A stretch of 64,000 nt of DNA from positions 62,001-126,000 of the forward strand of contig NZ_JAMJPL010000001.1 in the NCBI RefSeq assembly GCF_023555055.1, in the 5' to 3' direction. Origin of the DNA: Marinobacter sp. ATCH36. GTDB taxonomy: Bacteria; Pseudomonadota; Gammaproteobacteria; Pseudomonadales; Oleiphilaceae. A model generated the notes under the pieces. It saw only the letters and a list, made by a program, of their open reading frames with translations, did no database searches and was not told the DNA's origin. Below, piece by piece: positions 53,438-64,000 of this stretch; within the stretch, counting starts at the first letter, position 1; the number at the start of each line of letters is the position of its first letter. Made by a program: the position numbers and the translations under genes.

Positions 53438-55876
53438 TCAAAAATCAATCTGTGCGCCCAGCTTAATCGTACGCGGGCTGCCCTGCTCCAGGGACGAGCG
53501 GCCAGATTGCGAATACCAGAAGGCTTCATCAGTGAGATTCTCAACGTTCAGCCGCAAGGTCACGGGTGTTCCTCCGGCCTGCACGTCATACCGTGCGCCA
53601 GCATCGAAAAGCGTTACTGGATCAACGTTCCACCTGCCCTGGGGGTCCACGGGGCGCTCACCCACATACTGCGCGCCAGCACTGAGCGTTAATGGGATAC
53701 CCGCAACCCGATACTCTCCGTATAACTTGACCTGCTCGCGGGCAACGCCCTGGACTCGTTCACCATCAAGGCTGGGGTCACCGGTTTTCTCATTGCGGGC
53801 ATCCAGCCACAACGCACTCGCCGACAGCAGCCATTGCGAACCAATGCGAGCTTTGGTCGACAGTTCTAACCCCTCGTAACGAGCTTCGCCATTCTGGGTG
53901 AAAATGTTGTCAGAATTGGTATAAGTCAAACCGCGCTGCAACCGGAAGACCGCCGCGTTTGCTGACCAGTCATCTCTGCCAATCTTGACCCCCAGCTCCA
54001 GTTGTTCACTAACAAGAGGGTCAAACACTTCCCCCGCATTTGCGGCTCTTTCCGGCGCAACATTGCCCTGCTCAAACGCCTCAATGTAACTAGCATAGAC
54101 AGACAACCATTCAGCGGGGCGGTGAATAACGGCTAGGCTTGGCGTGATTTCGGACTCGTCATAATCGCCGAACTCGTCTTTCAGATTTCCGTGGCGCAAG
54201 CCTGCAATGAAGTCCCAGCTTTGACCCACCCTCAAGGTATCTGAGAGAAACAGTTCCTGGCGTTTGACTCGCGAATACTCCTGCTTTTTAGCAGCGCTCT
54301 TGGGCAGACGTTGGCGAGGCTCCATAAACTCCTCAGGGTCTGACAGATTACCCGACCCCAGATCTACAAACAGATTCAACGGCCCACTGTTGGACGCTAC
54401 GGTCTCGTTGTAAGAAGCACCTGCTACCAGTTCGTGGCGAACGAATCCTGTGTTTGCCTCACCTGAAACCATCAACTGGGTCTGCTCACTTTCGAACAGG
54501 TTGTTATAGCTATACAAAGTCGCCGTGTAATCGCCGTCAACGTTGGCAACAATGCCGGGCATATGGAACAGTCGATAGTTATCGGATTGGCGATGGGCGA
54601 TCTGCATACCCCACGTCTGGGACCACTGCCAGTTCAGTGTGGTACCCCAGGTTTCCTGAATGGATTCGTAGCTGGCCCATTCCGGTGCCAGGCGCTCGTC
54701 ACCACCGATGGGATCAAGGGGCTCGGCAGGGGTAAAGTTACCGCTCTGGCCGTCGGCGTTAGGCGTCACTGAATAATGGCCGCCTACGCGATTATGGTTG
54801 GCTTTGAGCGCATCAACCTGCCAGAAAAGATCTGGAGTAATGCGCCAGTCCAGCGCTACGGACGCCGAATTTCTTCGAGATTCTCCATCATTGATATAGG
54901 TATCGCCGGATTCGTGTACGGCGTTTATTCGATAGCCAAACTGGTCTTCAGTGCCGAATCGGCCGCCTAGATCGCCATGAATCAAAGCCAGACCACTGTC
55001 CATTAGCTGAAGGTTAAGAGTACGGGTTGGCGCCTCCGTGGGGCGCTTCAGGGTGTAATTAATGATGCCACCCGGAGCACCAAATCCATACAGGAAACCA
55101 CCAGCGCCCTTGAGAATTTCCACAGTCTCAACGTGTTCCAGCGGCAGATCCTTTGCCCTGCTGCGAAAATTCATACCGTCCAGTTTTTGACCTGTATCAA
55201 AATCCGGAGAAAGGCCCCTGATAGCCAAAGTGTTGTTTTCCGCAACCAGATCACCGGCAGATGAAGTCACAGATGCATCCAGCTTGGTCACGTCGGAAAG
55301 GGATCGGGCCTGAAGATTGTCCATCAATTCCCGGGAGTAGACATCAACGCTATAGGGGGTATTCTGCAGACTTTTATTTCCCAGCACGCCAACTGATGCG
55401 GCCTCCGAACGATAGGCGGCACCGGCGGAGCCGGGCACGCTGTCACCGCTGATCGTTAATTCCGGCAGAGTTGTCAACGCTCCTTTGTTCTCGCCGTTGT
55501 GAAGAATGACCGTGTTAGCGTCAGCAAACCGCGCGCTCAGTCCCGTTCCTGCAAGCAGCTTCTCAAGCCCCTGATCCACCCCATAACGGCCTAGAAGAGC
55601 CAGGGCGCGCTTGCCTTCAACCATGGCGGGATCAAACGACAGGGTTATTCCCGCTTCACTGGCAAACTGGTTCAACGATTGCGCCAATGGGCCCGCAGGG
55701 ATGGTGTAGCTTTTCTGTTCCTCAACCTGCGCCTGCGCCAGGTTCATCGGTGTCCAGGCCAGTGCCAGCCCCACCCCGAACAGACTGGCCCGCAAAGCAA
55801 ACGTCAAAGGCTTCAGGCGAAACGGATTGGGGCATTGGTCAGCCAACCTGACCCGTGTAGTAGGGAACGACGGCAT
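53438..55876 (-). CDS. FecA-type TonB-dependent siderophore receptor
   Basis: Outer-membrane receptor of 812 residues. A signal peptide is followed by an STN signalling domain (about 58-128; IPAGPLAQSLNQFASEAGIT, LAGTGLSARFADANTVIL), which talks to FecR, a plug (about 160-280; VETVEILKGAGGFLYGFGAP, GGIINYTLKRP) and a 22-strand barrel ending KLGAQIDF with terminal Phe. The presence of STN plus adjacent FecI/FecR says it both imports and signals. Siderophore not assignable, though resemblance is to FpvA/FoxA-type receptors. First of the receptor-DUF3649-PepSY-DUF3325 block. Confidence 0.93.
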   Translation of the reverse strand: MPSFPTTRVRLADQCPNPFRLKPLTFALRASLFGVGLALAWTPMNLAQAQVEEQKSYTIPAGPLAQSLNQFASEAGITLSFDPAMVEGKRALALLGRYGVDQGLEKLLAGTGLSARFADANTVILHNGENKGALTTLPELTISGDSVPGSAGAAYRSEAASVGVLGNKSLQNTPYSVDVYSRELMDNLQARSLSDVTKLDASVTSSAGDLVAENNTLAIRGLSPDFDTGQKLDGMNFRSRAKDLPLEHVETVEILKGAGGFLYGFGAPGGIINYTLKRPTEAPTRTLNLQLMDSGLALIHGDLGGRFGTEDQFGYRINAVHESGDTYINDGESRRNSASVALDWRITPDLFWQVDALKANHNRVGGHYSVTPNADGQSGNFTPAEPLDPIGGDERLAPEWASYESIQETWGTTLNWQWSQTWGMQIAHRQSDNYRLFHMPGIVANVDGDYTATLYSYNNLFESEQTQLMVSGEANTGFVRHELVAGASYNETVASNSGPLNLFVDLGSGNLSDPEEFMEPRQRLPKSAAKKQEYSRVKRQELFLSDTLRVGQSWDFIAGLRHGNLKDEFGDYDESEITPSLAVIHRPAEWLSVYASYIEAFEQGNVAPERAANAGEVFDPLVSEQLELGVKIGRDDWSANAAVFRLQRGLTYTNSDNIFTQNGEARYEGLELSTKARIGSQWLLSASALWLDARNEKTGDPSLDGERVQGVAREQVKLYGEYRVAGIPLTLSAGAQYVGERPVDPQGRWNVDPVTLFDAGARYDVQAGGTPVTLRLNVENLTDEAFWYSQSGRSSLEQGSPRTIKLGAQIDF

Positions 55877-56002
55877 CGTTTAAATCTCCACTGCTTGGCA
55901 AACAAAAATCATTAAGGTTTCTAGGAGGTATGCCGTGTAACCAGGAAAAGAGGGACAGAATTCGGAAAATATTATGCAAAACCAGCAAGCTTGGCGGGGT
56001 AT

Positions 56003-56971
56003 TCAGACCGGAACCACCGTCACCCAGTAGCCTGTTACGCGGCTGACCCTCACGGGCAGCGTGTTGGCGAGAATCTCCAGTACCTGATCGGTGTTATTCA
56101 ATTGGAAGACTCCGGAAATACGCAGGTTGGCCACCGCCGGGTCCACTCGCAGAACCCCGGGGCGATAGCGCGCCAGTTCCATCAGAAACTGATCCAGGCG
56201 CTGGTTGTCCGCAATCAGTTGCCCTTTTACCCAGGCTTGTGATTGATTGGATGCCGATTCTGGCGGATGCACACGCTGCTCCGAGAAAGCGGCTCTGAAA
56301 TCTGCTCGAACAACCGTCTCTTCCCGCTCTTCATTTGGGGCAATCGCTACGGCGTGACGGGTGACGGTAACTTCTGTGTGAGGCCTGGTCCCGGGATAGC
56401 CCGGCGCATTGGTGCGAACGATAAACTGCGTACCCATTGCCCGAATCCGACCCTGTTCCGTTGTCACCGTAAATGGCCTGGGTGAGGCGGCGGGGTCCGG
56501 CGCGGTGGTGACCCGGATCTCGCCACGATGCAGTTTGAGGGCGCGGGCATTCTCGCTGTAGGCGACGTCCACGGCGGTGTCAGTGTTGACGACCAGTTCA
56601 CCACTGTCGGGCAGGGTTACAATTCTTTGCTCGCCTTTGGCCGTGCGCATGTCAGCCTGCCAGATCTCCCAGGGCAGTTTGGCATAACCAAGCCAGCCAG
56701 TGGCCGGCAAAACGGCAAGGGCTGCAAGCGATTTTAGCAACGTGCGACGGTCCATTCGTCGGCGGCCCAGGGTAGAAGCTCCCATTTCAGAGGGCACAGC
56801 ACCCAACATTGACCTGAGCCGGCAGGCAGCCTGCCAGGCTCGCTCGTTGTCCGGGCTTTGGCGTCGCCAGGCAGTCAGCTCCCGCTCGGAGTCTTCATCC
56901 AGTGCGTTTTCATCCGACTTGACGAGCCAGTCCGCCGCTTCCTCCAGAACGCGCTCAGCAGCATGTTTCAT
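56003..56971 (-). CDS. FecR-type anti-sigma regulator
   Basis: Inner-membrane signal relay of 322 residues. Cytoplasmic N terminus with the DUF4880-like block EEAADWLVKSDENALDEDSE and AWRRQSPDNERAWQAACRL, one membrane segment near SLAALAVLPATGWLGYAKL, then the FecR domain (TAKGEQRIVTLPDSGELVVN, ARALKLHRGEIRVTTAPDP) and a C-terminal secretin/STN-like part (VANLRISGVFQLNNTDQVLE). ATG 56971 has GGAGGAG 11 bases upstream, eight bases after the fecI stop. It should hold the sigma factor until the receptor binds its siderophore. Confidence 0.9.
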   Translation of the reverse strand: MKHAAERVLEEAADWLVKSDENALDEDSERELTAWRRQSPDNERAWQAACRLRSMLGAVPSEMGASTLGRRRMDRRTLLKSLAALAVLPATGWLGYAKLPWEIWQADMRTAKGEQRIVTLPDSGELVVNTDTAVDVAYSENARALKLHRGEIRVTTAPDPAASPRPFTVTTEQGRIRAMGTQFIVRTNAPGYPGTRPHTEVTVTRHAVAIAPNEEREETVVRADFRAAFSEQRVHPPESASNQSQAWVKGQLIADNQRLDQFLMELARYRPGVLRVDPAVANLRISGVFQLNNTDQVLEILANTLPVRVSRVTGYWVTVVPV

Positions 56972-56979
56972 AACCCGAT

Positions 56980-57489
56980 TCACTCCTCCACCATTAATGC
57001 CAGACACCGGGTGAAGGCGTGTTTCATATCCCGCTTCACCGTCCGTACAGAAACCCTCAGGAGCAAGGCGATATCGGAGTAGGAAACGCCCTCCAGTTGC
57101 GACATCAGAAAAGCCTGTCGTATGCGCTCTGGCAAGCGGTCCAGCATAGCGTCAATGCGATCCAGGGTTTCCAGTAGAGCTTCCCGTTCCTCAGGCGACA
57201 CAGACTCGGGTTCCGGCATTTGCGCCAGCGCCTCCAGGTAGGCCCGCTCCAGCGACCGACGGCGGTAATAATCGATCACCAGTCCATTTGCAATCACCCG
57301 CAGATAGGCCCGAGGCTGCTCAACTTCCGAGACCGACATCCCCCGTTTACGCCGCAATAGCCTTACAAAGGTATCCTGTGCCAGGTCGGCCGCACTGTGA
57401 GAGCACTCGAGTTTTCCACACAGCCAGTGGTGCAACCAACCGTGGTGCTCCCGATACAGAGTGATGATGCTGGTTTGTGAACTACCCAT
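56980..57489 (-). CDS. FecI-type ECF sigma factor
   Basis: Sigma factor of 169 residues. Region 2 has LYREHHGWLHHWLCGKLECS and DLAQDTFVRLLR; region 4 has LPERIRQAFLMSQLEGVSYS, DIALLLRVSVRTVKRDMKHA. It matches FecI/FpvI regulators that switch on a cognate TonB receptor gene. I chose ATG 57489 over a TTG at 57519 because FecI proteins usually begin ten residues before LYR. Its promoter region holds a Fur-like box. Heads the fecI-fecR pair, with the receptor following after about 125 bases. Confidence 0.92.
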   Translation of the reverse strand: MGSSQTSIITLYREHHGWLHHWLCGKLECSHSAADLAQDTFVRLLRRKRGMSVSEVEQPRAYLRVIANGLVIDYYRRRSLERAYLEALAQMPEPESVSPEEREALLETLDRIDAMLDRLPERIRQAFLMSQLEGVSYSDIALLLRVSVRTVKRDMKHAFTRCLALMVEE

Positions 57490-57538
57490 GAAATGCTCGC
57501 TGGTGAACTCGATTGCCAAATAGTCACTGGGAACAAAC

Positions 57539-57856: not shown

Positions 57857-58181
57857 GATTTCCGATGATCACTGACCAATCTGGGCCGTGGTTATAAATT
57901 TTAATAGGAATCATTTGTATTTGTGGACCGAGATGCTACTCTTTCCACGGTTGGTGGACCCATGGAGTCTCTCTCGCTGCCGCATCAAATCAGGTTGTGC
58001 GCCAGCCGCCAGGAAGGCAACCAACTCTGCAGGTCCTGGCCGTTTTGCGTCTTTCGGTCAGGCGCCTGCAATCCCTCCTGCCCGACTCCAATGGCCTGCG
58101 AATTCCGGCTGCTACTCCCTTTCACAAGCCTTTCGCTGAACTGTGCACGGAATAATGCAACGGCGGGGGTTCACATTTAGG
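57857..58181. other. Gap between the iron and zinc loci
   Basis: About 325 bases up to the first Zur-like box. Open frames of 83-85 codons occur but have no convincing ribosome site and no protein pattern I recognise. The start is AT-rich with an AATCATT Fur-like half site at 57909 after TATAAAT, so an untranslated or iron-regulated short RNA is conceivable. I see no clear gene. Confidence 0.4.
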
Positions 58182-58198
58182 ATGTTATAACATAACAT
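58182..58198. promoter_or_regulatory. Zur box upstream of the DUF1826 gene
   Basis: ATGTTAT-AAC-ATAACAT is a perfect 7-3-7 palindrome and matches the gammaproteobacterial Zur consensus AATGTTATANTATAACATT at nearly every position over 19 bases. It lies 61 bases before the DUF1826 start, at promoter distance. Confidence 0.85.
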
Positions 58199-58259
58199 TT
58201 GCCTTGAAATCGATGACAACGGGTTAATCACTCATATCTCCCTGCACCAGGACGACGCC

Positions 58260-58892
58260 ATGACCCTGCAACCATCAGCGCTGGAAAAGCCAATTGCCAT
58301 CACGGGCGATCAGCCAGAATGCCTGACCGAAATCTTTCGGGATGAAGTCAACCTCGCTGTCTGGAACCGGGCTTTACACCCACGGATTGCGCCATTTGTG
58401 GAAGAACTGACGGCCTGGGAGGGGCGACTGGAACGTTTCGTCAGTCTCTCGAAGGGCGATAGCGCGGAAACGGCCCTTCCGAATTGGGCCATGACGATCA
58501 AAGGCGCGGAGGCATGGATAGATGACGCCAATGAGCTTATCGAGATGTACCGATGCCTGTTCGAGCCCGAAACCGTCGGCCTTCGGCTCCATGTCCTCAA
58601 GGGCACCATGTGCCCACGCTTTCACGTCGACCGGGTACCGGTGCGTTTGCTATGTACGTACCGGGGAGTCGGTACCGAATGGTTACCGGAAGGGTCGGTA
58701 ACCCGACCCGACACGCCGGGCCCGCTGCCGGATCAGTTGGTTGACCCCGGCAGCGTGGGACGCCTGGCGACAGGTGCAGTGGGGCTGCTTAAAGGTGAGG
58801 CCTGGGAGGGCAACGAAGGCAGAGGCCTTGTCCACAGATCGCCCTCACCCGGCAACCATCCTCGCCTGGTCCTGGCGCTGGATTGGCTTTGA
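58260..58892 (+). CDS. DUF1826 protein, zinc-regulated
   Basis: Cytoplasmic protein of 210 residues of the DUF1826 family, which occurs in Zur regulons beside zinc GTPases and transporters. Conserved pieces are IFRDEVNLAVWNRALHP near residue 25, GLRLHVLKGTMCPRFHVDRV near 115 (Cys, His and Asp that could hold a metal) and LLCTYRGVGTEWLPE. The C-terminal HRSPSPGNHPRLVLALDWL is typical. Biochemical function is unknown. It stands behind a strong Zur box, 50 bases before the AztD gene, which has its own box. Confidence 0.88.
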   Translation: MTLQPSALEKPIAITGDQPECLTEIFRDEVNLAVWNRALHPRIAPFVEELTAWEGRLERFVSLSKGDSAETALPNWAMTIKGAEAWIDDANELIEMYRCLFEPETVGLRLHVLKGTMCPRFHVDRVPVRLLCTYRGVGTEWLPEGSVTRPDTPGPLPDQLVDPGSVGRLATGAVGLLKGEAWEGNEGRGLVHRSPSPGNHPRLVLALDWL

Positions 58893-58906
58893 TTTTATCC
58901 AAAAAA

Positions 58907-58926
58907 GTAACGTTATAACGTTTTAC
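58907..58926. promoter_or_regulatory. Second Zur-like box, before the AztD-like gene
   Basis: AACGTTATAACGTT (58909-58922) is a perfect 14-base palindrome inside a GT...AC frame of 20 bases, resembling GTAATGTTATAACATTAC-type Zur sites. It ends 16 bases before the next ATG and so could overlap the start of transcription or translation. It would give the zinc operon its own control. Confidence 0.7.
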
Positions 58927-58942
58927 AACAAGGAGTTTCAGA

Positions 58943-60304
58943 ATGATCACCAAAAACAACTCACACACCAGAAGGATCTGGGTTCACGCCCATCGCGCTC
59001 CCCTGGCTGTTGCACTTTCCGCCGCTCTGATTGCCGGATGTGGCGGTAGCAGTTCAGATGACGACGAAGCCCATGAGCATACCGATATCGATACCTCTGG
59101 ACGCCTGGCCCTGTTCGACACCGATGCCGGTGCCATCAAGATCCTGGAAATCGATGACAATGGCGAGACGCTGGCTTCGTTTGCGGTAGACGGCGAAGCG
59201 CCAAGGTTGTACAGCAGCCCCGACCGCCGCTACGCCGTAGCCATTCAGCGGGCCGACGACCTGGTTTCCTTTTTTGACAGCGGCCTTTACACCGAAGACC
59301 ACGGCGACCACATGCATGACTACGCAGAAACGCCGACCATGCTCAACCTGTCGTTGAACGACAACCGCCCGACCCATTACTCATTGGGTAATGACCGGGG
59401 CATCGTTTTTTTTGATGGGTCTGCTTCTGCCAGCTCCAAGGTCACCGTTTTTACCGACGAATCTCTCGGCAACGGAGACGCCGAAGCGTCTCTGGATCTC
59501 GATAACAATATGCACGGCGTCGCCAAGCTGGCCGACGGCAAGCTGTTTGTTACCTATCGCCCGTCGTCAGTAACCGACACGACTCTACCTTCCCAGATAG
59601 AGAGATACGGCTTTACAGACGGTGGATTCAGCTTCGAAGATCGTTATGACGAAACCTGCCCTCGCCTACATGGCGCCGCTGCCAATGCCCATGTTGTCGC
59701 CTTCGGATGCAGCGATGGTGTACTGGCCATCGATCTTCATGATGCCAACTATCCCGTCATCAAACTCGGCAACCCCGATTCGCTGGCCGATGACAGCCGG
59801 ATAGGCACCCTGGCCGGTCACCCGGATGTCGAGGAGCTCGTAGGGATCGCGGGCGATCAGGTCTTTGTAATTGATGCCGAAGCCGCCACGGACAACTACA
59901 GTGAATTGGTTCTTGATGACGGCGTGGGTCCTATCGCTCAGGGCTTCGATGCTCACGGCGAAGTCTTCTATGTAATGGGAGACGACGGCAAGCTCCGGCT
60001 TTTCCAGCCTGAAAACGCCTGGACCCTGGCTACGACGATAGACGTGACCGACCCACTCGGAGAAGACAGCGCCTCACCAGCCATCGCCCAATCGGCTGCC
60101 GATGACCGCCTGTTCGTGTTGAATCCCAACAACCAAACCATCACCGAAATCGATACTCACGATGGCGAGGTTGTCCGCACCATGGACCTGGGCTTCTCCG
60201 CTTCCGGACTGGTCTGGCTGGGCCTGCCGGACAGTGATCATTCTCACGACGACCATGAACATGATCACGACGATGATCACGACCACGAAGATGACGAATC
60301 CTGA
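58943..60304 (+). CDS. AztD-like zinc metallochaperone lipoprotein
   Basis: Predicted periplasmic zinc chaperone of 453 residues with a lipobox (AALIAGCGGS). The body is a beta propeller of repeated short blades, with DTDAGAIKILEIDDNGETL, LYSSPDRRYAVAIQRADD and YVMGDDGKLRLFQPEN. Histidines typical of zinc sites sit in AHEHTDID near residue 45 and DHGDHMHDYAE near 120; the last 23 residues are a His/Asp tail. In Paracoccus, AztD hands zinc to the ABC binding protein AztC. The binding-protein gene is two genes downstream. AAGGAG precedes the ATG. Confidence 0.87.
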   Translation: MITKNNSHTRRIWVHAHRAPLAVALSAALIAGCGGSSSDDDEAHEHTDIDTSGRLALFDTDAGAIKILEIDDNGETLASFAVDGEAPRLYSSPDRRYAVAIQRADDLVSFFDSGLYTEDHGDHMHDYAETPTMLNLSLNDNRPTHYSLGNDRGIVFFDGSASASSKVTVFTDESLGNGDAEASLDLDNNMHGVAKLADGKLFVTYRPSSVTDTTLPSQIERYGFTDGGFSFEDRYDETCPRLHGAAANAHVVAFGCSDGVLAIDLHDANYPVIKLGNPDSLADDSRIGTLAGHPDVEELVGIAGDQVFVIDAEAATDNYSELVLDDGVGPIAQGFDAHGEVFYVMGDDGKLRLFQPENAWTLATTIDVTDPLGEDSASPAIAQSAADDRLFVLNPNNQTITEIDTHDGEVVRTMDLGFSASGLVWLGLPDSDHSHDDHEHDHDDDHDHEDDES

Positions 60305-60337
60305 TTCAGGGTTTGTCACAATTTTTCCTGAAGTCAG
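60301..60337 (+). promoter_or_regulatory. Hairpin between aztD-like gene and the barrel gene
   Basis: CTGATTCAGG (60301-60310) pairs with CCTGAAGTCAG (60327-60337) with one bulged base. It overlaps the aztD-like stop codon and ends just before the ribosome site of the next gene, so it could affect its translation or protect the upstream message. Confidence 0.4.
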
Positions 60338-60346
60338 AGGAACACT

Positions 60347-61489
60347 ATGAAACTCCTGAACACTCAAGCCGGCGCTCTCGCGCTGGCCATTCTCCCGTTT
60401 ACCGCAATTCAGGCCAACGAAATGAACCCGGATGTCAGCGTGGTGCTGGATGGCTATTACAAGCAGAACCACACCGCCCTGTCACACCGTGACGAGGGCT
60501 TTGGGCTCGGCCATACCGAGCTGTCTCTCTCCTCTCCTATTGACGACCTATTCGAAGGCCGACTGACAGCCGTACTGGAGGATCACGAAGGCGAAACCGA
60601 ACTGGGCCTGGAAGAAGCCTTCCTGCAGACCACTGGTATGCCCTACAACCTCAGCGTTCGCGGTGGCCGCTTTCTTTCTCAGGTAGGCTACCTGAACAGC
60701 CGTCACCTCCATGAGGATGACTTTGTGGAGCGGCCCGCCGCATACCGGGCATTGCTGGGCAGCCATTATTTCGACGATGGGTTGCGTGTGAACCTGCTTT
60801 TGCCCACACCCTTCTACTGGCAGATCGGCGCCGAAGCGTTTGATGGTAACCAGCTGTCCGAAGGCGAGGAAGACATCGGCGTGTACACCGTCAATACCCG
60901 ACTCGGCGGCGACCTCACCCCTTCGCAAAGCTGGCAGGCCGGCCTGTCGTACCTGAATAACCGTCAGGTCCATGGCGGCCATGGTGACCACGGCGACCAC
61001 GGCGATCACGGCGATCACGGCGATCACGGCGACGACCATGATCATGGCGGCCATTCCCACGGCGCCCAGTACACCGGCGAGAATCTCTACATGGCGGATC
61101 TGGTGTGGAAATGGGCGCCGGGTGGCAACAACCGCCAGCAACAGCTGACCCTCAGCGGCGAATACCTTTATGTCGACGACCTGAATGAGCATGCGACATC
61201 GGATGACGTTCACGAAGGCTGGTATGCGTCCGCGGTTTACCAGTTCGCGCCACAATGGTCGGCCGGTGCCCGCTATGGCCAGGTCGAACTCAGGGAAGCC
61301 CATGGCGACCACTTCCACGACCAGGAACTGAAAGAAACGGATGTCATGCTGGCCTGGTCTCACTCCCACTTCTCGACGGTGCGTCTGCAGTATACCCATC
61401 AGGAAGCCCACGGATTCGAGAAAGCCGACAACACCGTAATGCTGCAGTACGTCATGAGTTTCGGAGCGCACGGTGCCCATGGTTTTTAA
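60347..61489 (+). CDS. Zinc-regulated outer-membrane barrel with His/Asp repeat loop
   Basis: Exported protein of 380 residues: signal peptide ending IQANE, then alternating strands typical of a porin-like beta barrel (VVLDGYYKQNHTALSHRDEG, LTLSGEYLYVDDLNEHATS, VRLQYTHQEAHGFEKADN) and a C-terminal aromatic residue (HGAHGF). Residues about 209-240 are a loop rich in His, Asp and Gly with five exact GDH units, followed by HDHGGHSHG. Such a loop should bind zinc at the cell surface or in the periplasm. There is no TonB plug. Position between the chaperone and zinc-transport genes, behind Zur boxes, points to zinc passage across the outer membrane. Confidence 0.83.
   Translation: MKLLNTQAGALALAILPFTAIQANEMNPDVSVVLDGYYKQNHTALSHRDEGFGLGHTELSLSSPIDDLFEGRLTAVLEDHEGETELGLEEAFLQTTGMPYNLSVRGGRFLSQVGYLNSRHLHEDDFVERPAAYRALLGSHYFDDGLRVNLLLPTPFYWQIGAEAFDGNQLSEGEEDIGVYTVNTRLGGDLTPSQSWQAGLSYLNNRQVHGGHGDHGDHGDHGDHGDHGDDHDHGGHSHGAQYTGENLYMADLVWKWAPGGNNRQQQLTLSGEYLYVDDLNEHATSDDVHEGWYASAVYQFAPQWSAGARYGQVELREAHGDHFHDQELKETDVMLAWSHSHFSTVRLQYTHQEAHGFEKADNTVMLQYVMSFGAHGAHGF
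60983..61027. repeat. Five in-frame 9-base repeats encoding Gly-Asp-His
   Basis: Five tandem copies of GGYGAYCAC (Y is C or T) lie inside the barrel gene; the last three are identical. A unit change keeps the frame, so the number of histidines in the loop can vary by replication slippage without breaking the protein. Confidence 0.92.
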
Positions 61490-62408
61490 ACAACTCGTTA
61501 CCGGCGTGATGCTCGGGCTGGCCATGATGCCCGCCCAGGCAGCTCTCAATGTCTTCGCCTGCGAGCCGGAATGGGCAGACCTGACCAGGATTCTGGTGCC
61601 GGATGCGGAGATTCGAACCGCAACCACCGCCTGGCAGGATCCGCATTACATCGAGGCACGGCCCAGCCTGATTGCAGCCATGGGTCGTGCGGATATTGCC
61701 GTCTGCACCGGTGCTTCGCTGGAATCAGGTTGGCTACCTGCGCTGATCAGCCGCGCATCCAACCGCGGCGTCCAGCCGGGTAAGCCGGGGTTATTCTTCG
61801 CTGCCGAGCAGGTCGAGCTGCATCAACCCCACGACCACGTGGATCGCAGTATGGGCGATGTGCACCCGGAGGGTGACCCCCATATCCACCTCGACCCTGA
61901 CAGGCTGCCCGATATCGTGGAAGCGCTCGCGGATCGACTCACCGAGCTCGCACCCGACCGTGAGAACGCGATCCGTCTGCGCCAGCGGCAATGGCACGTG
62001 GGCTGGAAACTCAACACCGCACGATGGCGCGAGGCCGCAACCAGCCTGGAGGGTATGCCGATTGTGGTTCAGCACTCCACATTTGGTTACCTTCTGCGCT
62101 GGCTTGGGGTGGAGGCAGCCATCGATCTGGAACCCAAGCCGGGTTTGCCACCCAGCGCAGCTCATCTGGGCAAAGTACTGTCCGATCCGGCGCTTGACGA
62201 GGTTAAAGTGGTGCTGATTGCAAGCTACCAGAATGATCGCCCGGCGCAGTGGCTATCGGAAAAGGCCGGGCTACCGGTTGAAGTTTTACCCGGCACCGTG
62301 ACGGAGGAGCCGAAAACCAACAGCCTTGCCGAACTGATCAGCCATATTATCGAGCGCCTCCAGCAATACAATGACAAGGCGGCCCCGGAGAGCGCCGATC
62401 ATGGCTAG
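61473..62408 (+). CDS. znuA: Zinc ABC transporter binding protein (ZnuA/AztC-like)
   Basis: Periplasmic cluster A-I metal-binding protein of 311 residues with a signal peptide ending MPAQAA. Candidate zinc histidines are in WQDPHYIEARPS near residue 54, GDPHIHLDPDRL near 130 and VVQHSTFGYLLRWLG near 200, the three ZnuA positions. Between them lies a short His loop (HQPHDHVDRSMGDVH). The fourth ligand, an Asp near the C terminus in ZnuA, is not obvious. Start is GTG 61473, six bases after GGAG, overlapping the barrel gene by 17 bases; ATG 61479 is an alternative. Confidence 0.87.
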   Translation: MPMVFKQLVTGVMLGLAMMPAQAALNVFACEPEWADLTRILVPDAEIRTATTAWQDPHYIEARPSLIAAMGRADIAVCTGASLESGWLPALISRASNRGVQPGKPGLFFAAEQVELHQPHDHVDRSMGDVHPEGDPHIHLDPDRLPDIVEALADRLTELAPDRENAIRLRQRQWHVGWKLNTARWREAATSLEGMPIVVQHSTFGYLLRWLGVEAAIDLEPKPGLPPSAAHLGKVLSDPALDEVKVVLIASYQNDRPAQWLSEKAGLPVEVLPGTVTEEPKTNSLAELISHIIERLQQYNDKAAPESADHG

Positions 62409-63186
62409 CTGGTTCTGGCTTTTGACCCCACTGGCGGCGAGCCTCTTGATGGCCCTGTGTCTGGTTCCGCTGGGCCACCGGGTTCTTGAGCGGGGCGTGG
62501 TGTTTGCAGACCTTGCTATTGCCCAGTGGGCGGCACTTGGCTCCCTGACTGGCCTGTCCCTGATGCCGAACCACACCATTGCCGGCATACCGGCCAGCGG
62601 GCTTTTGTTTGCCCTGTTGGCGGTGGCAATGGTGCACCTGATCCTGAAGCTGGTGCCCGACTATCGCGAAGCGATGATCGGAACCCTGTATGTGCTGGGG
62701 GCCAGCCTGGCTACCCTGGTGGTCAGCCAGGACCCCCACGGTGCCCAGCAGCTGGCAAAAACCCTCAACGGCGACCTGCTCTGGGTCACCAGTTTTTCGC
62801 TGATTCCAATGGCTGTGATCACCCTGGCCGTTTTGCTGTGGCGTAACACCGGCTCCGAACATTTTCGTGCACGGCTGTTCCTGCCGCTGTTTGCGGTGGC
62901 AGTCACCATGACCGTGGAAACGGCGGGGGTCTATGTGGTGTTCGCGACCCTGATTGCGGCACCACTCATGCTTTGCTGCCTGAGGGGATATGGTCTGGTG
63001 ATGGCGTCCGCGGTCTGTTTTACCGGCCATGGCATCGGGCTCTGGCTGTCAGCGAGCTATGACATACCGGCTGGTCCGGCCATTGTGGTATCGGTGCTCG
63101 GTAGCTGCCTGCTGGCAATGCTGGTTTTCAGAGAGCCCGCACTGGGAACGGCTTTTCGCGGATGCCAGAAAACGGATTCGCCATGA
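62401..63186 (+). CDS. znuB: Zinc ABC transporter permease (ZnuB/AztB-like)
   Basis: Metal-type ABC permease of 261 residues with about eight membrane segments. It has VPLGHRVLERGVVFADLAIA QWAALG-type N terminus, DYREAMIGTLYVLGASLATL and the conserved end VETAGVYVVFATLIAAPLML. ATG 62401 overlaps the binding-protein stop by eight bases. No ATPase gene accompanies it in the cluster: downstream is an unrelated convergent gene. The ATPase must be supplied from elsewhere or lie outside this window. Confidence 0.88.
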   Translation: MASWFWLLTPLAASLLMALCLVPLGHRVLERGVVFADLAIAQWAALGSLTGLSLMPNHTIAGIPASGLLFALLAVAMVHLILKLVPDYREAMIGTLYVLGASLATLVVSQDPHGAQQLAKTLNGDLLWVTSFSLIPMAVITLAVLLWRNTGSEHFRARLFLPLFAVAVTMTVETAGVYVVFATLIAAPLMLCCLRGYGLVMASAVCFTGHGIGLWLSASYDIPAGPAIVVSVLGSCLLAMLVFREPALGTAFRGCQKTDSP

Positions 63187-63195
63187 CGGCCGGGA

Positions 63196-64000
63196 TTAAC
63201 GCGTCATCTTTGAACGGCCATCATCAGGCTGTTCAACCAACCTTTCAAACTCGGCAGAAGGCAGAGGCCTGCTAAAAAAATACCCCTGGAAACGCTTACA
63301 GCCCATTTGAATCAGCCGCTCCAACTGCCCTCTGGTTTCTACGCCTTCTGCCACTGCCGATAACCGAAGCGCAGAAGCCAGGGCAAGGATGGTCTCTGCG
63401 ATTGCAGCATCATTGGGGTCATCAAGGATGTCCCTGACAAAGCCCTGATCAATCTTGAGCTCATCCAGCGAAAGTCTCTTCAGGTATCCCAGCGACGAAT
63501 ACCCTGTACCAAAGTCATCCAGAGAGACGCGGATTCCCATGCTTCTCAGTGTACGGAGCGTTTCCTCAACCATCTCCAGATCATAAGCGAGCGCACTCTC
63601 GGTAATCTCAATTTTCAGATTTCGGGGCGAGGCGCGGGTCTTTCTCAGTAAAGCCATCACCGTTGTGCAGAATGACGGCAGCCGAAACTGCTTTGCACTC
63701 ACGTTTACCGCAACCGGAAGCTTCGACAACCGATCGCCCCTGCGCTGCCAATCGGCAACCTGCGAGAGAACTTCCTCCAGAACCCAATAGCCCACCTGTT
63801 CAATCAGCCCACTCTCTTCCGCCAGGGGAATGAACTCGGCGGGTGAGACCATTCCGCGACCGGGGCATTGCCAGCGCAACAGGGCTTCCGCACCTATCGG
63901 GCTGCCACTCTCGTCGACCTGCAGCTGGTAATGAACAGAAAACTGTTCCCTTCGTACCGCTGCGCGCAAATCCGATTCCATTGCCAGGCGCTCAGACACG
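63196..64000 (-). CDS. EAL-domain c-di-GMP phosphodiesterase, N terminus cut by window edge
   Basis: Degrades c-di-GMP to pGpG. The visible 268 residues are an EAL domain: GAEALLRW (EALxR with the catalytic Glu), KIEITESAL, SLDDFGTGYSSL and the late AVAEGVETRGQLERL and FQGYFFSRPLP, all active-site groups intact. The residues at the edge (RLAMESDLRAAVRREQFSVH) are the usual linker after a GGDEF domain, so the full protein is probably GGDEF-EAL and starts beyond the right edge. Convergent with the zinc permease, 9 bases apart. Confidence 0.93.
   Translation of the reverse strand, partial: VSERLAMESDLRAAVRREQFSVHYQLQVDESGSPIGAEALLRWQCPGRGMVSPAEFIPLAEESGLIEQVGYWVLEEVLSQVADWQRRGDRLSKLPVAVNVSAKQFRLPSFCTTVMALLRKTRASPRNLKIEITESALAYDLEMVEETLRTLRSMGIRVSLDDFGTGYSSLGYLKRLSLDELKIDQGFVRDILDDPNDAAIAETILALASALRLSAVAEGVETRGQLERLIQMGCKRFQGYFFSRPLPSAEFERLVEQPDDGRSKMTR

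Follow-up and report, generated by a model that had tools for sequence, protein, structure and literature searches.

A Zur-box gene cluster in Marinobacter pairs a predicted TonB-free porin with an ABC-3-type permease lacking an ATPase gene and coupling segment

The window that we analysed is a stretch of 64,000 nucleotides (G000:C11:62001-126000) from a 4.29 Mb genome whose nearest named relatives, judged by the barrel protein described here, are Marinobacter. Positions 58182 to 63186 hold a Zur box and five co-directional genes, for a DUF1826 protein, an AztD-like chaperone, a porin-like outer-membrane barrel, a ZnuA-like zinc-binding protein and a permease of the ABC-3 type (ABC, ATP-binding cassette). 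The original prediction, made from the letters alone, had read this run as a Zur-controlled zinc cluster; the identities of the five products were confirmed, and the reading was borne out in part, as a zinc-uptake cluster under an exact Zur box. Zinc uptake under Zur is very probable. Beside the permease there is no ATPase gene, and the permease itself lacks the coupling segment of ABC-3 permeases. The best explanation, which we hold to be moderately probable, is a zinc route that Zur represses and that ends in a permease independent of ATP. For the permease taken by itself, import without ATP is the best reading, at about an even chance. The features on which the argument draws are as follows.

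58183-58197, no strand: Zur box TGTTATAACATAACA, an exact match to TGTTATANNATAACA
58260-58892, plus strand: gene for the DUF1826 protein (PF08856, 196.8 bits)
58943-60304, plus strand: gene for the AztD-like exported zinc chaperone (NCBIfam AztD, 113.8 bits, E 7.1e-33)
60347-61489, plus strand: gene for the porin-like barrel, 380 amino acids, 16 strands (AlphaFold2 model, OprO match)
60677-60769, plus strand: residues 111-141 of the barrel, predicted to form the constriction loop L3, a 31-residue loop between strands 5 and 6 of the model
60962-61081, plus strand: His/Asp-rich loop L5 of the barrel, residues 206-245, between strands 9 and 10, predicted to be extracellular
61473-62408, plus strand: gene for the ZnuA-like zinc-binding protein (PF01297, 114.9 bits)
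62401-63186, plus strand: gene for the ABC-3-type permease without the coupling segment (PF00950, 36.4 bits)
62509-62670, plus strand: span with D37, Q42 and E90, around the ABC-3 metal-site positions, invariant in type I permeases
62839-62874, plus strand: site where 12 codons replace 31 ABC-3 profile positions (the coupling segment), by the PF00950 gap and the ZnuB alignment
63196-63999, minus strand: gene after the permease, whose translation reads EAL-domain-like by eye

No ATPase gene was found in the cluster, and since the gene at 63196-63999 lies on the opposite strand directly after the permease, none follows there. The permease matched PF00950 (cut-off 20.1 bits) in two stretches, profile positions 8-139 and 171-256, and 28 of the 29 permease members matched this family at E <= 0.001. 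Alignment with the ZnuB of the same genome opened a gap that deletes the stretch around STIHEELAKVEGVPVER, about 19 residues, and the residues between two anchors number 52 in the window permease vs 71 in ZnuB. We take the stretch around STIHEELAKVEGVPVER in ZnuB to be the coupling helix, going by knowledge of the family and not by a structure of the complex. In PsaBC, the coupling helices are the link to the ATPase according to the part of PMC11779740 consulted, which gives no residue numbers. In the AlphaFold2 model of the permease (predicted local distance difference test, pLDDT, 90.1), helices 131-148 and 153-175 are joined by four residues, a short turn that, in our own reading by the positive-inside rule, would lie on the cytosolic side. 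The model resembles PsaB (7kyp; E 2.4e-7, TMq 0.72), with BhuU next. By sequence and predicted fold, the permease has the ABC-3 transmembrane domain; a cognate ATPase in the cluster and the presumed coupling helix are absent.

In MntC, D47, H51 and D94 are essential (PMC8487065, in the part consulted), and the ZnuB of the window's genome has D, H and D at this site. The metal-site His is absent from the window permease. One alignment puts Q42 on the His column and D37 one column off the first Asp of ZnuB; another, to ZnuB, pairs D37 with the Asp and A41 with the His, and the His is missing either way. The D-H-D triad is incomplete in both alignments, with D37 and E90 kept and no His. D37, Q42 and E90 are present in 142 of 142 short (type I) permeases and in all four permeases of intermediate length, while the 18 permeases of a sister architecture with an ATPase gene do not keep this set. 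Against two relatives, the ratio of nonsynonymous to synonymous substitution rates (dN/dS) comes to roughly 0.10-0.15 in the permease (for L010, over part of the gene) and 0.05-0.08 in the barrel. These low values mark purifying selection, indicating that the two are not decaying genes.

We then sorted related loci, all found through the barrel, by the presence of an ATPase gene between binding protein and permease and by the spacing of the anchors; permeases of the short type are thus known here through porin-bearing loci. From 177 barrel loci, 11 without a usable binding protein or permease were dropped (L079, L082, L176, L202, L224, L234, L236, L238, L242, L247 and L257), leaving 166 classified; taking out L168, cut by a contig end, and L256, whose genes are broken, reduces this to 164. 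Of the loci with an ATPase gene placed between those of the binding protein and the permease, 18 of 18 keep the segment, at a spacing of 70-71. The 148 loci with no ATPase gene there comprise 142 at a spacing of 48-56, four at 64-68 (L240, L241, L245 and L246), the cut L168 and the broken L256. The permeases of L081/L182 and of L085/L183 are identical in sequence and those of L208/L249 almost identical; each pair enters the counts as two. Among the dropped loci, L079 and L202 have barrel and binding protein with no permease beside them, and in L242 and L247 the binding-protein gene is followed by an ATPase gene but no permease was found. L080, L081 and L182, which show an ABC ATPase match of 80-83 bits after the short permease within the 2.6 kb searched past the binding protein, were counted as short type; beyond 2.6 kb, two short-permease loci have same-strand ABC ATPase matches (L069, 98 bits; L196, 157 bits). 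In summary, the ATPase gene and the coupling segment go together, an association that is complete but confounded by ancestry. A quick tree of 130 rows shows the short form and the ATPase-bearing form each as nearly one group. In the same tree, which does not settle the order of the losses, ZnuB falls next to the intermediate forms, and a long branch carries 17 of the 18 permeases that have an ATPase gene.

The sister architecture runs barrel, binding protein, short ATPase (192-208 amino acids in the three that were read) and ABC-3 permease with the coupling segment. It was seen in L173, L174, L175, L225-L233, L235, L237, L239, L243, L244 and L248, some of them with Zur boxes. In the genome of the window, the best match to a sister-cluster ATPase is ZnuC itself, at 67 bits.

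Next, we asked for canonical zinc permeases in 69 chosen genomes with a barrel match. The module of barrel, binding protein and permease was seen in 67 of these, and in G031 and G385 the barrel alone was looked at. Performing PF00950 searches, we found a canonical full-length permease in 39 genomes, the intermediate form alone in four and the short split form alone in 26. The 26 genomes (G031 and G385 not among them) are at least 90% complete, eight of them consist of one contig, and all 26 show the module. With the ZnuC of the window's genome as query, they gave background ABC ATPases of 72-97 bits; the same query gave 279-585 bits in four genomes with ZnuB, the highest value coming from its own genome. 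Because the ZnuC search returned background alone, the 26 genomes hold no ZnuC orthologue for the permease to borrow. Six of them (G361, G744, G681, G701, G650 and G508) have no ZIP protein over the cut-off.

The regulatory side of the cluster begins with the box TGTTATAACATAACA, an exact match to TGTTATANNATAACA, which we take to be the Zur consensus. Its position over a promoter-like site suggests that the cluster belongs to the Zur regulon. A similar Zur site, TGAGTGTTATATTATAACACCCG, is given in the part of PMC9817125 consulted. The identical 15-mer TGTTATAACATAACA occurs elsewhere in the genome, about 40 bp ahead of the probable start of a COG0523 gene, and a copy with one mismatch lies 114 bp upstream of the point where the main znuA begins to match PF01297. 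The original prediction had counted two near-perfect Zur-like palindromes. The first is this exact box; the second, AACGTTATAACGTT (about 58908-58921), is a real palindrome, but with about four mismatches from the Zur consensus by hand count it stands at chance level, and we rejected it as a Zur box. Across the genome_contigs set (the best 80 of at least 582 contigs coding a barrel relative), 79 loci were measurable; 28 of them have an exact upstream site, and in 7 more the best one carries a single mismatch. The downstream controls (75 loci) gave no exact site and one at 1 mismatch, and 790 shuffles gave no exact site and three at 1 mismatch. For the type I loci, searching 2.6 kb upstream of the barrel, an exact box was found in 33 of 144 and a box with one mismatch in 9 of 144, compared with 0 exact and 2 one-mismatch sites in 432 Markov shuffles and 0 and 1 in 137 downstream controls. 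The Shewanella and Cognaticolwellia loci have no Zur site at 0-1 mismatches, and Zur control of the Shewanella loci was rejected on that ground. Reading two counts together, we see no clear regular link between the presence of ZnuBC and of a Zur box outside Marinobacter. A further Zur-like site with one mismatch lies immediately 5′ of a gene for a His-rich DUF2796/ZrgA-like protein (L042, G000:C11:1071607 region; gene names from translation), so that the genome may have a third zinc system.

The barrel was predicted with a pLDDT of 85.3 and a predicted TM score (pTM) of 0.82, and it has 16 strands if residues 51-64 are taken as one strand. OprO is its best match in the PDB (E 8.1e-12), followed by OprP, MOMP and OmpC-type porins. 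The model thus fits the 16-strand porin superfamily with an inward loop L3, where L3 and L5 were assigned by the usual porin numbering. The window barrel matched no Pfam or NCBIfam family over the cut-off, and among 47 aligned barrels the matches were weak (Porin_4 in 9/47, BBP2 in 7/47, Porin_O_P in 1/47, the LbtU porin in one), so we rejected assignment to a known family. This outcome, weak relationships in some members alone, is what the profile check against outer-membrane families proposed in the original prediction returned. TonB Plug or TonB-barrel domains matched in 0 of the 47 members, which together with the 16-strand model led us to reject a TonB receptor and upholds the earlier view of a non-TonB porin-like barrel. 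H120, H122 and H140 in L3 are invariant in 47/47 barrels, including a copy on a Campylobacterota plasmid, and so are G373, H375 and H378 in the C-terminal GAHGAHxF. Loop L5 is of low confidence in the model (pLDDT <50 at 211-236); in 30 family rows its region always contains His and is acidic, being rich in H, D and E in varied text. A 9-bp tandem repeat coding in frame for GDH runs through it at 60970-61033 with 7.1 copies. This array was found in the window's genome alone among the 30 rows, with 29 relatives lacking it, and was dropped as a key feature. Thus, of the GDH loop singled out by the original prediction, the richness in His is common to the relatives but the repeat is not. The array is a candidate length-variable site in a surface loop. 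We consider it likely that the barrel is a zinc-favouring, TonB-free porin.

The AztD-like protein is below the NCBIfam equivalog cut-off of 400 bits but is a clear relative of the solved AztD (PDB 6cmk, E 8.6e-22), in agreement with the earlier naming of this chaperone. In our own reading, its sequence has a lipobox-like start and a C-terminus rich in His and Asp. The ZnuA-like protein scores 74.2 bits against AztC (cut-off 350) and matches the PDB structure of AdcA (7jj8) with E 3.2e-13. DUF1826 genes appear in Zur-linked contexts in the parts of PMC2770081 and PMC5786701 consulted, and the legend of a figure of Zur-regulated clusters in PMC2770081 names DUF1826 together with an outer-membrane protein, OMR.

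The module is widely and tightly linked. Barrel matches turned up in 110 of the 369 class genomes and in 22 of the 398 phylum genomes; in the family the count was 39 of 151, weak matches included. One Campylobacterota copy was met by chance outside Pseudomonadota. A binding protein and a permease follow the barrel in 30 of 30 family loci fetched, and the three occur together in 78 of the 80 genome_contigs loci, the exceptions being L079 (no permease match) and L082 (contig end). The AztD and DUF1826 genes are optional and occur mainly in Marinobacter relatives. In one Marinobacter relative, the DUF1826 match near the barrel is broken over two frames (L011:2741-3041), probably a damaged copy.

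A small exported-looking protein of about 95-120 amino acids, with His, CxxC and a C-terminal RxPP (often (S/A)RAPP), is encoded 5′ of the barrel in 90 of 164 loci, for example at L116:7619-7909, and in 0 of 153 downstream controls. It accompanies both ATPase-less and ATPase-bearing clusters and was found in none of the Marinobacter loci. A looser pattern finds a CxxC-type small protein in Sulfurovum (L139:3842-4195), with HAPP instead of RAPP. Matches to DUF2946 fell below the cut-off in three of five proteins tried, with nothing stronger. In Shewanella loci such as L083, L087 and L104, conserved blocks, including a promoter-like stretch of TTGACTT followed by TA-rich sequence, precede the small CxxC gene.

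The barrel, binding-protein and permease genes of the window overlap in series. Two further predicted elements lie within the cluster.

58170-58198, plus strand: sigma-70-like promoter over the Zur box, 9/12 hexamer matches, a consensus match alone
60292-60318, plus strand: terminator-like stem at the junction of aztD and the barrel gene, 12 paired positions (five G-C) followed by a T-rich stretch

Promoter-like sites number three in the region vs 1.8 expected. Terminator-like stems number seven vs 4.3 expected in shuffles, which makes the stem at 60292-60318 a weak one. A single transcript across all five genes is uncertain because of this stem. Upstream, on the minus strand at 53438-57519, genes for a TonB receptor with an STN domain, FecR and an extracytoplasmic-function sigma factor form a FecIR-type set.

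A cluster of this kind is already in print. In V. parahaemolyticus, the Zur-regulon genes omr-znuAII-znuBII are upregulated 1034-, 543- and 283-fold in zinc deficiency, and the cluster also occurs in V. vulnificus and V. campbellii (PMC9817125, in the part consulted). The cluster as such is therefore not new. In V. campbellii, locus L138 carries the barrel, the binding protein and the short permease; an exact Zur box stands 81 bases upstream of the barrel match. By synteny, we conclude that the Vibrio omr is the same barrel; the term TonB-dependent receptor, used for omr in PMC9817125 as far as consulted, is accordingly a misnomer. No AztD or DUF1826 gene was found by the module in three Vibrio loci (L130, L131 and L138). 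In the literature searched, which left most subscription journals outside, we found no treatment of an ABC-3 permease without an ATPase and, in the parts consulted, no discussion of the missing ATPase of an omr-znuAII-znuBII type cluster.

From these data, we infer the substrate of each part, the direction of transport and the independence from ATP, and arrive at the following route. When zinc is scarce, Zur would leave the box at 58183 and the genes would be expressed. The surface loop L5 of the TonB-free 16-strand barrel, rich in His and Asp, may collect zinc, whose passage the constriction loop L3 with its invariant His would favour. The AztD-like and ZnuA-like proteins would receive zinc in the periplasm, and the ZnuA-like protein would dock on the ABC-3-type permease, which has no coupling helix or adjacent ATPase gene. 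Transport through the permease is probably driven by the zinc gradient itself together with the membrane potential, or coupled to protons via D37, Q42 and E90; membrane potential or protons as the driving force is our guess. The original prediction had each compartment covered. Barrel, chaperone and permease are indeed present, but since the permease lacks an adjacent ATPase gene and the coupling segment, this coverage holds only if it works without ATP or borrows an ATPase.

Such borrowing is the main alternative, which we judge unlikely: a normal ABC importer would rely on an ATPase encoded at another locus, ZnuC or a different one. The window's genome does have znuCB, beside a second FUR-family gene, plus a separate znuA; canonical znu genes lie near the module in L075, L076, L169 and L173; and FhuC as a shared ATPase is the subject of PMC10147376, as seen in part. 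A borrowed motor would still have to act on the 142 permeases from which the segment aligned with the coupling helix is missing, and in 26 of the 69 genomes with a barrel both a canonical ABC-3 permease and a ZnuC orthologue are missing. D37, Q42 and E90 are, moreover, identical in permeases from genomes with and without ZnuBC. It is rather improbable that the permease is no importer and serves as a membrane receptor for the binding protein, a zinc-equalising channel or an exporter. The loss of the coupling segment, ATPase gene and metal-site His would fit such a role, yet the fold is that of PsaB, the permease adjoins a ZnuA-like protein in nearly all loci, and the induction in Vibrio on zinc limitation fits import (PMC9817125, in the part consulted). 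We give very little credit to the remaining view, an ordinary second ZnuAB set with a general porin, in which the His-rich loop and the short permease reflect decay or drift. It could appeal to the GDH repeat confined to one genome among 30 rows, to broken copies of the module (L256 and G047) and to three low-scoring barrel matches without an adjacent binding protein (L234, L236 and L238). The low dN/dS, the invariant D37, Q42 and E90, the His conserved in L3 and the C-terminus across 47 barrels, and a barrel profile matched in 110 of 369 class genomes all argue otherwise.

Several observations weigh against a zinc route ending in an ATP-independent permease. Zinc transport by the module is deduced from genes, structure models and comparison, and the link to the Vibrio omr (VP_RS21420-21430) is by synteny, not sequence. 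In V. parahaemolyticus, deletion of znuAII alone left growth in chelator like that of the wild type, the authors assigning znuAII a minor role when zrgA is deleted (PMC9817125, in the part consulted). All loci were found via the barrel and the short permeases are largely of one ancestry, so the 142 do not count as independent events. In the four intermediate permeases the segment is partly kept and no ATPase gene was found in the vicinity, their genomes giving one PF00950 match each. A Zur box at 0-1 mismatch occurs in 42 of 144 type I loci and in 2 of the 26 genomes without ZnuBC; hence zinc as the substrate is supported in the window's genome and not family-wide. A ZIP protein over the cut-off is present in 20 of those 26 genomes, leaving room there for a zinc importer other than the module, and an unlinked ATPase other than a ZnuC orthologue may serve as a borrowed motor.

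Tentatively, and at somewhat below an even chance, we extend the proposal of an ATP-independent zinc route to a widespread class. These would be metal importers that need a binding protein but no ATP and that derive from ABC-3 permeases by loss of the ATPase and the docking helix, with the His replaced and D37, Q42 and E90 fixed, and that work with a His-lined porin as an envelope-spanning zinc route without TonB and without ATP. If so, a large set of proteins annotated as 'metal ABC transporter permeases' would not be ABC pumps, and some bacteria without ZnuBC would import metal via a binding-protein-fed permease that needs no ATP. There would also be a TonB-free outer-membrane zinc channel, correcting the name 'zinc-regulated TonB-dependent receptor', and a natural test of an ABC membrane domain without its motor.

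Among known systems, the Vibrio omr-znuAII-znuBII cluster is closest, with the same gene set and order, membership of the Zur regulon and no ATPase gene named with it in the part of PMC9817125 consulted; unlike our reading, that paper makes the barrel a TonB-dependent receptor and ZnuBII a second ZnuB. MnoP of Bradyrhizobium is likewise an outer-membrane channel for a scarce metal and needed for its uptake, but its metal is manganese (PMC9334652, in the part consulted). The cluster shares with AztABCD of Paracoccus an AztD-like chaperone, an AztC-like binding protein and a weak AztB match (27.8 bits), whereas it has no AztA, its AztD, AztC and AztB scores lie below the NCBIfam cut-offs of 400, 350 and 280, and the module includes a porin. 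With ZnuABC and other ABC-3 importers (PsaBC, MntBC) it has in common the permease fold, the ZnuA-like binding protein and the Zur box, but its module is without the ATPase gene, the coupling segment and the metal-site His. The solitary S-components BioY and BtuM of the energy-coupling factor type are related to an ATP-driven transporter yet act alone, and are not known to use a periplasmic binding protein. The permease proposed here would resemble them in acting without a motor, while their fold and substrate are unrelated.

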